A DNA stretch of 43,128 bases, taken from NCBI RefSeq assembly GCF_000963695.1, contig NZ_LAJX01000073.1, forward strand, positions 1 through 43,128, written 5' to 3'. This DNA comes from Methylocucumis oryzae. GTDB lineage: Bacteria > Pseudomonadota > Gammaproteobacteria > Methylococcales > Methylomonadaceae. The notes beneath the pieces are model-generated. The model did no database searches and was not told where the DNA came from. It saw only the letters and a program-made list of their open reading frames with translations. Of this stretch, positions 13,755 through 30,460 are shown piece by piece. Positions within the stretch are counted from its first letter, which is position 1; the number at the start of each line of letters is the position of its first letter. Made by a program: the position numbers and the translations under genes.

Positions 13755-16215
<2,461 letters not shown>

Positions 16216-25719: not shown

Positions 25720-25870
25720 GGACTACCAACTTAAGGCGGGACACAATACCAAGCCGGGACAGGGCACACGAGTGCAGGTGTCGGCAGCAGGGATGCTGCC
25801 GCCAAGCCTACAGGGACGTATTTACGGCGTCCTGCGCTCGTGTGCCCTGTCCCGGCTTAAGTTGGTAGCC
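25720..25870. repeat. 151-bp MITE-like element, copy C (between pssA and kinase)
   Basis: A longer relative of copies A and B with the same core (GTCGGCAGCAGGGATGCTGC and CAGGGACGTATTTACGGCGT). The ends are GGACTACCAACTTAAGGC and GCTTAAGTTGGTAGCC. About 20 bp near the left end looks like a local duplication (CCAACTTAAGGCGGGACA then CCAAGCCGGGACAGG). It is flanked by a perfect 7-bp direct repeat, CTGATTT (25713-25719 and 25871-25877). The right end supplies the last codons and stop of the minus-strand kinase gene. Confidence 0.92.
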
Positions 25871-27546
25871 CTGATTTACTGGTAGCGTCTGCCACAATAG
25901 GGATTAGCAGTTTAAACAATGCGCCTTGCTGGCAGGCCAATACGTCAAGCTGTCCGCCGTAGGCTTTTAACACCGATAAGCAAATCGATAACCCTAAGCC
26001 TGCGCTACCTTGATTACGCTTAGTCGTAAAAAAAGGCGTAAAAATTTTATCCCGATTCGCGTCTGAGATGCCGCTACCGTTATCGTGTAATGCTATCGAT
26101 AACTGAGCGCTTTTAGCTTCAGCGTAAATCTGAACGCTACTCGCACCGTTTTGCACGCTATTCTCGAATAGATTAACTAACACCATTTCCAATGCATCGG
26201 GCGCAATGGCTAACGGCGTGCGCGGTAGTTCATAAGCTATTAACTCAAGACCACGAGCCTTGAAACGAGGCGTAATCGTCGCTAATAATTCCGATAGCTG
26301 GCAAGTTTGACGACTAGGCTCTAACGCGTCGGCACGGGCTAACTCTAATAAACGATGCACTAATTGTTTTAATCGTTGCGTGTCAGCTAGCGCATTGGCA
26401 ATAAAACGCTGCTTATCTGACTCTGGCATAGAGTCAGCGTGTTCTTGGATGAGTTCTAATGCGCCTTGTATCGCCGTTAACGGCGTTTTGAATTCATGCG
26501 AGACATGAGTAGCAAAGCGACGTATATAATCCCCTCGCTCGACTAACGCTTTCGACATCTCAGCAAAACTACTAGAAAGCTGGTCAATTTCATAAGTCAC
26601 CGGGTTTTTTAACGGTTTTATCTGTTTTTGCTCGCCGTGTTTAATGCGCTCCGTTTGCGCTATCAATTCTCGTATGGGCCTTGCAATCGTCGCTGACACC
26701 AAAGTGCCTAACGCAAATACAATCGCTAACACGCTGCACGACACGAAAACTACGGTAGCTTTAACCGCATATAAATCCCGTAAAATATTATTCGGTGTAC
26801 GAGACAGATAAATGACACCTTGCAGATAACGCTGCTCTAAACCAACATCTTCTACAACCGGAAGCGTTTCAATAATCGGATAAGCAATAAACGCACGTAT
26901 ATTAGAGCCTCGACTCAATGAATACAGTGGCGGCGGCGGTTCATCAGAGAGTCGCTGCCGTATGCGGGCGCTATAAAAGCCCTTTAATGCCTCTTGCACT
27001 TCCTCGACATGAGCCAACGACAACCCGACTTCATCTCGACCCGCAATCACTAAGCCCTGGGCATCTAAGACACGCATACCGGTCAACATCACTTGTTGTG
27101 TATCTCGCAGCACAGGTGTCATAAGATTAGCGATTTTCACACTAGTCGTATCAGCTTTTAACAGACAAAACTGTGCATCAGGACGTTTTAGCCAAAATCG
27201 GATTAATCAAACTGAGAATAGGCGGCACCGGTTTATACATGGGCAATGCTGCCGGTGCCGTTGTTAATAAGCGCCCATAAGGTTTTTGAGCGTGAGTTAA
27301 ACTACGCACGTTTTGCCTAAATGTCGCCGCTAATACTGCCGCTTGTGCGATTAATTCCTGCTCAGTTTGACGAACTAAGCTATTTTCATAAATGCGAAAA
27401 AAATAAATGCTGCCTAATGGCAGCATTAATACTGTTAACATGACTACAAATAAAATACTGCGTAAGCGTAGTAACGGCTTACCCGAACCCCATGCTAAGG
27501 ATAAAAACACAACCATGAATGCAAGCCTCAAACGGTAATCCGTCAC
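25857..27546 (-). CDS. Sensor histidine kinase (one frameshift, repeat-altered C-terminus)
   Basis: Membrane sensor kinase of about 562 residues after correction. The N-terminal helix lies in ILFVVMLTVLMLPLGSIYFF, followed by an extracytoplasmic region (VLDAQGLVIAGRDEVGLSLA), a second helix near VKATVVFVSCSVLAIVFALG, and HAMP. The H-box is ATHVSHEFKTPLTAIQGALE. The ATPase boxes are LFENSVQNG, LHDNGSGISD and GLGLSICLSV. T4 at 27186-27189 has one extra base; removing it joins PILAK to RPDAQFCLLKADTTS. The start is uncertain: GTG at 27546 or ATG at 27516. No response regulator is adjacent. The final GLPT and stop come from repeat copy C; without it the end would read SKSD. It is divergent from the GGDEF/EAL sensor, suggesting joint signalling. 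Confidence 0.88.
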
Positions 27547-27633: not shown

Positions 27634-30460
27634 GTGTTTACTTGGTTAACTGAGCTGTCATCGAATTCTAATCATTTTATGCCTCATGGCGCTTGTTATC
27701 TGTGGCAACAGTCTATCTTACTATTGCATGTGATTAGTGATACGCTTATTGCGTCAGCCTATTACTCCATTCCAGTCGCGTTAGGCTATTTTGTTCATCG
27801 CCGTACTGACTTGACGTATCGCTGGGTGTTTTTGTTATTCGGCGGTTTTATCTTGCTATGCGGCACTACGCATCTACTTAGCATTTGGACAATATGGTAT
27901 CCCAACTATTGGCTTGCCGGTTGGGTTAAAGCGATTACCGCATTAGCGTCTTGTATAACGGCTGTATTAATTTGGCCGTTAATCCCTAAATTATTGTCAT
28001 TGCCAAGCCCAGAAGCGTTAGCCTCTAGCGAAGCCTATATGCGGGCAATATTTGATTGTACACCCGATAGTATTTTAATTACCGATGATAAAGGCGTTAT
28101 CTCGTTGGTCAATCACGAAGCTCAGCATTTACTGGGCTACCCACATGATGAACTCATTGGCACGACCATCGATAACCTATTCCCTACGCCATCAAAAAAC
28201 GCTTATGCCAGTTTACGCGCGCACTGTATCGATAACGCAACGATAGATTTAGAACCGATTACCCAAACTTTTTCAGTATTAACTAAATTCGGCCATGAAA
28301 TCGAAGTTTCACTTAGATTGAGCATTATTAACACCAAACAAGGCTTATATTTTGCCTGTACGCTACGTGATATTACGCAAGAAAAACAAGCAGAAAATGC
28401 GTTAAAAGCTAGCGAAGAGCGCTTTAGGCGTATGGCCAATGCCTCACCGACTATGATTTGGATTACCGATGCCTCAGGTAAATTCAGCTTTATCAATCAA
28501 ACCTGGCTTAATTTTACCGGTATTAAACCCGCTGATGCGCTTGAATTGGGATTGTCATCTAGCCTTAATCCACCTAGACGATCAAGCTCTTTTTATTAGT
28601 GCTTTCGAGCATATTCGCTTTAGCCATCCCCAACCCATTACTTTTGAATATAGAATGCGTAAATATTCAAATGACTGGCGCTGGATTTTAGACCATGCCG
28701 TACCGCTACACGATAATAAGGGGGAATTTTGCGGTTATATAGGCTCAGCTATCGATATTACCGAGCGTAAACAAGCCGAAGCTGAATTTAGAATAGCTGC
28801 CGCCGCCTTTGAATCACAAGAAGCCATGGTCATCACCGACACAGAGACCGTTATCTTACGCGTTAATAAAACGTTCTGCGATACAACCGGTTACTCGGTA
28901 GAAGAATTAGTAGGCAAAAAATGAATCTGTTGAAATCGGGTAAACATGATGACGCGTTTTATACTGAAATGTGGCAACAGGTCAATGCCACCGGCGCTTG
29001 GCAAGGTGAAGTTTGGGATAAACGCAAAAATGGCGAAATTTATCCCAAATGGTTAACAATTACCGCCGTAAAAGACAATCATGGCGTTACCACGAATTAT
29101 GTTGGCACGCATATCGATATTAGCGTTCGCAAAGCACAAGAAGATGAAATCAAATTATTAGCCTTTTATGACTCATTAACCCAACTACCTAACCGACGCT
29201 TATTACGCGATAGGCTACAACAAGCGCTAATCAACGCGAAACGTCATAAACTGTATGGTGCTTTATTATTCATCGACTTAGATAATTTCAAAACACTAAA
29301 CGATACGTTAGGGCATGATATTGGCGATTTGTTATTAATCGGAGTCGCTAATCGATTAAAACTGTGTATCCGCGAAGCCGACACCATCGCTCGTTTAGGT
29401 GGCGATGAATTTATTGTTATGTTAGAAAAAAATTACCGATAACGCGACGGGGGCCGCGTTAAGTGCCGAAGCCGTTGCACAAAAAATGATTGCCGCCTTA
29501 AACCAACCTTATCATTTTTCAGGTCATGAGCATCATAGTTCACCAAGTATTGGTATCACGTTATTCAGCGCACAAGACGAAACTGTTGATAGTTTATTAA
29601 AGCAATCCGACATTGCTATGTACCAGGCAAAAGCCGCTGGACGTAACACGCTACGTTTTTTCAATGCCGATATGCAGGCAGCGGTGACTCAACGAGCGTT
29701 AATGGAAGAAGATTTACACAAAGGCATCTTAGAACGGCAATTTACGTTGTATTATCAATCTCAAGTCGAGCAATCAGGCCGTATTTTGGGTTGCGAAGCA
29801 TTAGTACGCTGGAATCACCCACAACTCAACTTTGTCACACCGGCAGATTTTATTCCATTAGCTGAAGAAACCGGACTTATTATTCCGTTAGGTCAATGGG
29901 TCTTAACCGCAGCGTGCCAGCAATTGGCCGCTTGGGCTAACAGTCCCGTATTTAGCCATGTCACCATCGCGGTAAATGTCAGCGTTAGCCAATTTAAACA
30001 AGATAATTTTATCGACCAAGTCTTAATGGCACTGAGGCAATCGGGCGCGAATCCTAACAGACTAAAACTTGAACTGACCGAAAGCTTAATCGCCTCTGAT
30101 TTAGACGATATTATTAGGAAAATGAAAGCGTTGAAGCAAATAGGCGTTTCCTTTTCACTCGATGATTTCGGCACAGGATTTTCTTCGCTAAACTATCTTA
30201 AAAAACTGCCTTTTGATCAGTTAAAAATCGACCAGAGTTTTGTCAAAAATATTTTAACTGACCAAAATGACGCCGCGATTGCCACTATCATTATTAAACT
30301 TGCCGACAGCTTAGGCTTACAAGTCATTGCAGAAGGCGTTGAAACCCAAGCACAACTAGATTTTTTAGCCACGAGTGGCTGCCCTTATTACCAAGGCTAT
30401 TTGTTTAATAGACCGTGCCCCGTCGAAGAGTTTGAGCAGTTGTTTGAAAGTATGAGCTAA
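27634..30460 (+). CDS. Ethylene-receptor-like membrane domain, three PAS, GGDEF and EAL (three frameshifts)
   Basis: A bifunctional cyclic-di-GMP enzyme, 941 residues after correction. Residues 1-125 form three membrane helices matching the ethylene-binding domain of plant ETR1: VISDTLIASAYYSIP and FILLCGTTHLLSIW align without gaps. They keep the equivalents of Asp25, Tyr32, Ile35, Pro36, Cys65 and His69 (here Asp36, Tyr43, Ile46, Pro47, Cys76, His80); Cys and His bind Cu(I) in plants. Three PAS domains lie at about 138-255, 256-385 and 386-505. GGDEF (about 510-675) has an intact GGDEF and a READ inhibitory site five residues before it. EAL (about 700-935) has CEALVRW and DDFGTGFSSL. Indels: extra G at 28548-28550, missing A at 28916-28921, extra A at 29426-29432. 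The GTG start has GGAGAG upstream. Confidence 0.9.

Follow-up and report, generated by a model that had tools for sequence, protein, structure and literature searches.

The locus described here raises the question of whether a sensor domain of the ethylene-receptor type can be joined directly to the enzymes of cyclic-di-GMP (c-di-GMP) metabolism, and of what such a protein would sense. It lies in a stretch of 43,128 nucleotides from Methylocucumis oryzae (contig NZ_LAJX01000073.1 of assembly GCF_000963695.1), the whole of which was analyzed and is referred to as the window.

Identity of the sensor domain

The ethylene-receptor-like domain is genuine, and the case for it is stronger than an earlier note on this DNA had claimed. 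The first ORF of the gene (27634-28599, forward strand; GTG start, 321 aa) was searched with the profile of the ETR1 N-terminal family, as that note had suggested, and matches Pfam ETR1_N (PF25487) over residues 28-123 with an E value of 2.4e-40 and 137.1 bits against a cut-off of 27. The ETR1_N search model gave no match in 14 control genomes, which excludes a chance match. The transmembrane sensor domain as a whole comprises residues 1-125 (27634-28008, forward strand) and aligns with AzoEtr1(1-130) of Azospirillum brasilense over 115 residues without a gap, 60 of them identical (E 2e-46). The AzoEtr1 sequence was reached through A. brasilense plasmid records matched by the window domain; the gene was taken from strain Sp 7, and its identification as AzoEtr1 follows from its length of 525 aa and its exact match to the published cloning primer.

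Sites D36, Y43, I46, P47, I73, C76, H80, and K99 of the window correspond to D25, Y32, I35, P36, I62, C65, H69, and K91 of ETR1. The first seven of these ETR1 residues are those needed for ethylene binding, K91 is the partner lysine, and C65 and H69, the counterparts of C76 and H80, are the Cu(I) ligands. All eight sites agree between the window and plant ETR1 in an alignment with 46 of 113 residues identical. The window has the complete set of seven ethylene-binding residues (DYIPICH) and the same columns are kept in AzoEtr1; in this second alignment, where the AzoEtr1 letters come from its own record, all eight sites are again conserved. The six key residues singled out in the earlier note (Asp, Tyr, Ile, Pro, Cys, and His) are therefore present, and every ethylene or copper residue that was checked agrees. 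Binding of Cu(I) and of ethylene by the window domain is putative, being carried over from ETR1 and from AzoEtr1, whose 1-130 fragment binds ethylene saturably (PMC11819568).

A domain alignment was built from 178 distinct ETR1_N domains of fetched loci, which were chosen mostly by rank and are not a random sample. The Cys is kept in 170 of the 178 rows and the His in 172, the Asp/Lys pair is more variable, and all eight sites are intact in 128 rows. A PHGxCxxW motif (27676-27705, residues 15-24) precedes the first helix, beyond the reach of the Pfam match, and hardly varies among the same rows (His in 164, Cys in 167, Trp in 171).

A structure prediction of residues 1-125, also proposed in the earlier note, returned the expected three-helix bundle (AlphaFold2, pLDDT 88.2, pTM 0.73) from an alignment that combined the window domain with one locus of cyanobacterial origin and 13 viral-contig homologues. 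Helix 1 (residues 26-56; 27709-27801) carries D36, Y43, I46, and P47, helix 2 (residues 63-88; 27820-27897) carries I73, C76, and H80, and helix 3 (residues 92-121; 27907-27996) carries K99, the counterpart of ETR1 K91, all on the forward strand. The ethylene-binding sites sit on helices 1 and 2 of the predicted bundle, as ETR1 would have them, with Cys76 and His80 about one helix turn apart. Searches for a solved homologue gave nothing meaningful by sequence (best phmmer match a cytochrome bo3 subunit 4 at E 0.02, none by profile search) or by fold (Foldseek against the PDB, none at E 0.001 or better), and a fold search of BFVD gave a single match, A0A8E4UZR7, at E 5.4e-4.

Architecture of the gene and its surroundings

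The earlier note had read the output of the protein as three PAS domains followed by GGDEF and EAL. These domains are indeed present, and in intact relatives they occupy a single frame; what that reading missed is that the window gene is broken three times. Alignment with intact relatives by tblastn showed that the coding stretch 27634-30460 is divided into four ORFs by three frame changes. Downstream of the sensor on the forward strand are PAS domain 1 (28036-28374; PF00989, residues 135-247), frame change 1 (28541-28565), the portion of PAS domain 2 in the second frame (28547-28747; PF08447), and PAS domain 3 (28820-29124; PF13426), which spans frame change 2 at a run of A (28915-28921) and is matched in two frames, the second piece alone scoring 25.1 bits and so falling below the cut-off of 27. 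The GGDEF domain (29161-29647; PF00990, E 1.9e-33 and 3.3e-8 in two frames) is in turn crossed by frame change 3, also at a run of A (29426-29432). The GGDEF motif lies at 29398-29412 with an I-site, R-E-A-D, immediately ahead of it, and the EAL domain (29708-30415; PF00563, E 1.1e-76) has EALVR, ELTES, DDFGTG, and EGVE motifs, so that both enzymatic domains carry their catalytic motifs. The best relative, L109 (941 aa), matches in four pieces from 27634 to 30451 with 58, 70, 72, and 59% identity, and the window aligns end to end with intact relatives of 941-957 aa, the best six of which show 54-76% identity per piece.

A divergently transcribed histidine kinase with HAMP, HisKA, and HATPase domains (25857-27546, reverse strand; Pfam and ORF list), itself split in two frames, had been put forward as a possible partner. 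This is not borne out, as the kinase does not recur beside the relatives: searched with its two pieces, it gave only eight matches, none over 150 bits, in 119 ETR1_N loci longer than 4 kb, which mostly extend about 4 kb to either side and represent all ETR1_N types and not the window clade alone. The Mrp-like, PssA-like, and HerA-like neighbors in the window (names given by eye) had no match in these 119 loci.

A second copy of ETR1_N is present in the same genome on contig C384, from about 15091 down to 12303 on the reverse strand, with GGDEF and EAL behind it in a different frame; its sites read by eye as DYISICHK. The genome of the window (G000) gave 50 GGDEF matches, some of which are halves of broken genes, versus 12, 24, and 38 in three relatives of the genus.

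Distribution and outputs of ETR1_N proteins

ETR1_N matches at E 0.001 or better were obtained for 138 of the 237 genomes from the window's family, 135 of them exceeding the cut-off, and for 156 of the 301 from its order, with 152 exceeding it; of the 156, 134 belong to family f1 and 22 to f4. The domain was detected in 11 of the 20 genomes of the window's genus, with no match in the other nine, in 17 of 240 genomes of the class of G539, and in 29 of the 398 genomes of a phylum sample (28 over the cut-off, G000 among them).

For the 131 collected domains from inside the order, complete frames numbered 65 with c-di-GMP domains (GGDEF and/or EAL), 44 histidine kinases, and five in which no output was found, the window gene in its broken state being one of these five; cut frames numbered six, three, and eight, respectively. 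Outside the order (46 domains) there were 33 histidine kinases (32 complete, one cut), one c-di-GMP protein, and 12 with no output found (11 complete, one cut); the single cyanobacterial locus collected, L023, has a GGDEF-EAL output. Among the domains collected, which are not a random sample, the statement of the earlier note that bacterial domains of this type usually sit on histidine kinases holds outside the order (32 versus one) but needs refining inside it, where 65 c-di-GMP proteins stand against 44 kinases and the architecture of the window is a recurrent type, not the oddity of one gene. Among the 29 domains scoring above 175 on a custom ETR1_N profile (the window scores 181), 19 have a c-di-GMP output, one is a kinase, and nine have none; the locus ends within the frame in seven of these nine, and the two complete ones are the broken window gene and L142, a frame of 195 aa.

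Pfam recognized ETR1_N, PAS, GGDEF, and EAL in each of L101, L103, and L083, with three PAS stretches in L101 and four in L103. Catalytic motifs are widely kept in the 64 GGDEF-EAL relatives, some of which are cut: GGDEF or GGEEF occurs in 64, ExLxR in 63, DDFGxG in 58, an ExVE type in 55, an ELTE type in 51, and the I-site in 50.

The genome has a PF02461 (PmoA/AmoA family) gene (E 1.7e-128), which makes a methanotroph of the Methylococcales type likely, and PF02461 was found in 32 of the 41 genomes that make up the set of relatives, of which G000 is one. Methanotrophy was considered as the driver of ETR1_N and rejected, since PmoA is also present in families f2, f3, f6, f7, and f8, in whose genomes no match to ETR1_N was obtained. 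The domain follows families f1 and f4 and not PmoA as such, and a link to methane oxidation as such is unsupported by the distribution.

The Asp/Lys pair

In ETR1 the conserved Asp sets the affinity for ethylene, Asn being about 100-fold weaker, and a salt bridge with the conserved Lys has been modelled, as described in PMC13012798, which cites Azhar 2023 and Aman 2025. In our alignment 153 of the 178 rows have Asp with Lys or Arg, 21 have neither, two have Asp with a non-basic residue, one has Lys without Asp, and one has a gap. Rows in which this pair alone is changed and the copper Cys and His are kept read NYIPICHE (seven), HYIPICHL (four), and NYIPICHD (three). The pair Asp36-Lys99 ranks third of 6903 by APC-corrected mutual information (z 5.8; sequence weighting to about 80 effective rows, pairs with a column separation of at least five). 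In the tree of the domain, seven changes of Asp and eight of Lys are counted, and on five branches the two change together; for five of seven Asp changes to coincide with a Lys change, given 354 branches, the hypergeometric P is 2.6e-8, a crude figure which assumes uniform placement. The five shared branches are two single end branches, one with support 0 and zero length, one with support 66, and one with support 96. A sign test on the well-supported branches has one independent pair only, so the co-variation is unconfirmed there, and some of the joint losses fall in degenerate domains which have lost other sites too. Should the co-variation hold on a larger tree, it would be independent evolutionary support for an Asp-Lys salt bridge in ethylene receptors.

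The window keeps both residues. Of the 16 ETR1_N proteins of its genus (the partial match G001:C248 left out) 12 have a changed pair, and not every such protein need therefore be a high-affinity ethylene receptor. The fourteen proteins L087, L088, L089, L091-L098, L186, L187, and L196 have the counterparts of Asp25 and Lys91 changed jointly (N/E, N/D, or H/L) with the other six sites intact; 11 come from the window's genus, and 13 show GGDEF-EAL, L093 being cut.

ETR1_N proteins in viral contigs

Scanning of viral contigs (IMG/VR) with domain alignment A1 identified 15 ETR1_N loci (L223-L237). Most of these frames hold little beyond the three-helix domain, and custom GGDEF, EAL, kinase, and receiver profiles gave no match in any of the 15; inspection by eye shows a kinase-like tail in L224 and possibly the beginning of one in L228. 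All ten viral proteins submitted to Pfam (114-190 aa, some with trimmed starts) pass the ETR1_N cut-off, and Cys and His are kept in all 13 viral rows of alignment A3. A phage hallmark gene was found in the same stretch in six of the 15 loci, namely an endolysin (L230, L237), a tail gene (L226, L231), a virion structural protein (L233), and a terminase (L228), in a check that covered 20 neighbor proteins from 10 contigs, L223, L224, L227, L235, and L236 being left out. None of ten viral ETR1_N proteins had a PHROG match, the window domain and three viral ETR1_N proteins had no match in 50,697 phage records, and L230 and L231 matched only themselves in IMG/VR, which indicates that the viral ETR1_N proteins are rare and varied.

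Proposed mode of action and alternatives

We consider it probable, with some reserve, that the window protein is a Cu(I)-dependent membrane receptor for ethylene or a similar gas which directly sets c-di-GMP through its GGDEF and EAL domains. By analogy with ETR1, the three transmembrane helices would hold Cu(I) at Cys76 and His80, and ethylene or a similar small unsaturated gas would bind at this site. Asp36 may tune the affinity and pass the signal on by bridging to Lys99 of helix 3, as the literature and the co-variation suggest. The resulting shift would run through the PAS domains to GGDEF and EAL, a putative cyclase plus phosphodiesterase, and would alter c-di-GMP and hence attachment or biofilm formation. 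Plants and soil are likely sources of the ethylene. Ethylene is a co-substrate of methane monooxygenase, and methane oxidisers meet it in this role and in root zones; if the proposal is true, it suggests that methane oxidisers sense ethylene. As to the sign of the response, ethylene lowers c-di-GMP in A. brasilense (PMC11819568), which weakly favors the same direction for the window protein. With receptor domain and c-di-GMP enzymes united in a single protein, the link from ethylene to c-di-GMP would become testable in one tube.

Beyond the window we put forward, tentatively, a wider scenario for two mainly methane-oxidising families: a Cu(I) ethylene receptor may have been rewired from two-component signaling to c-di-GMP control by one protein, ethylene, from plants or as a competing substrate of methane monooxygenase, would set attachment or biofilm formation, and paralogues would have been retuned by joint change of Asp and Lys with the copper ligands kept.

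One alternative is that the domain reports not ethylene but copper, or a different ligand of Cu(I), for example CO or acetylene. Coupling copper status to c-di-GMP would be sensible in copper-dependent methane oxidisers, the genome has a PmoA-family gene, and the near-constancy of Cys and His beside a more variable Asp/Lys pair points the same way; we nevertheless regard this as unlikely, given that the window keeps every residue needed for ethylene and not those for copper alone, that its closest characterized match, AzoEtr1, is a proven ethylene binder, and that PmoA is found in families without ETR1_N. The signal could also come mainly from the three PAS domains lying between the sensor and the enzymes. 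A role of the ETR1_N domain chiefly in membrane anchoring or dimerisation, with the PAS domains doing the sensing, would agree with the three PAS domains of the window gene and with a spacing to the enzymes that varies from the three of L101 to the four of L103, but polar and metal-binding residues inside the helices are needless for an anchor and 128 of the 178 rows keep all eight sites, which renders it improbable.

It is also very improbable that the gene is a decaying pseudogene in this organism: for all its three frame changes, and the multi-frame state of the second ETR1_N-GGDEF-EAL stretch of the genome, two of the three changes fall at runs of A, every piece retains 54-76% identity to the best six relatives with the catalytic motifs kept, and the class I tRNA synthetases of this assembly include two split genes and one with a short frame, with the limit that relative G016 also has one split. 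The assembly is fragmented (389 contigs, 88.6% complete), and its class I tRNA synthetases include one with a frame of 729 aa on C14 and two with split frames, of 222 and 681 aa on C360 and of 134 and 434 aa on C361, the contig of the window, compared to frames of 821 to 975 aa in G011 and G019. As essential genes of this kind are unlikely to have decayed, sequence errors are the best reading of the frame changes, with errors in the assembly likelier than decay, and the living cell probably has the ETR1_N-PAS-GGDEF-EAL gene intact.

Within the window the class I tRNA synthetase gene (13877-15609, forward strand) looks frame-broken, and a gene from 35376 down to 33868 on the reverse strand, whose product is phytoene-desaturase-like, looks split. 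Together with the histidine kinase these genes all look broken, and indels may be genome-wide.

Comparison with known systems

Bacterial ethylene-receptor-like domains are already known; in the published accounts consulted those characterized are histidine kinases, and direct coupling to c-di-GMP is little studied. Searches of the open-access literature brought up no report of a fusion between an ETR1-type domain and GGDEF or EAL, none on ethylene receptors in methanotrophs, and no description of the ETR1_N-PAS-GGDEF-EAL proteins of the order. Such c-di-GMP outputs may be mentioned in the reviews of Papon and Binder and of Carlew. Plant ETR1 has the same three-helix copper and ethylene domain as the window (46 of 113 residues identical). 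Its output is composed of GAF, kinase-like, and receiver domains, unlike the c-di-GMP enzymes of the window.

AzoEtr1 has a sensor like that of the window, with the 60 identical residues, the same eight sites, and the same PHGxCxxW lead, and binds ethylene, but it is a histidine kinase of 525 aa encoded beside a response regulator gene (PMC11819568), while the window type has a PAS-GGDEF-EAL output. In A. brasilense ethylene lowers both c-di-GMP and biofilm, and the route from receptor to response is described there as unknown (PMC11819568). SynEtr1/UirS of Synechocystis, likened to the window by description, is also a bacterial ethylene receptor of the ETR1 type, with PAS and GAF domains (PMC6682694, PMC5812497), but it signals through a histidine kinase and phosphorelay (PMC11819568). 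As its output is GGDEF-EAL, the window protein lacks the histidine-kinase-type output of AzoEtr1, SynEtr1, and ETR1 and is receptor-like by its sensor only. The nearest link to c-di-GMP that we found in print is the GeiEtr2 cluster of Geitlerinema, in which a putative receptor gene is grouped with a gene for a predicted diguanylate cyclase domain; in that cluster the cyclase has a gene of its own, and a receiver domain placed behind the others terminates the receptor (PMC6682694), while the window type has sensor and cyclase in one protein. Close counterparts are from the same order, where proteins such as L101, L103, L083, and L109 have the same kinds of domain in the same order as the window, with a varying number of PAS domains, in one intact frame of 941-1185 aa.
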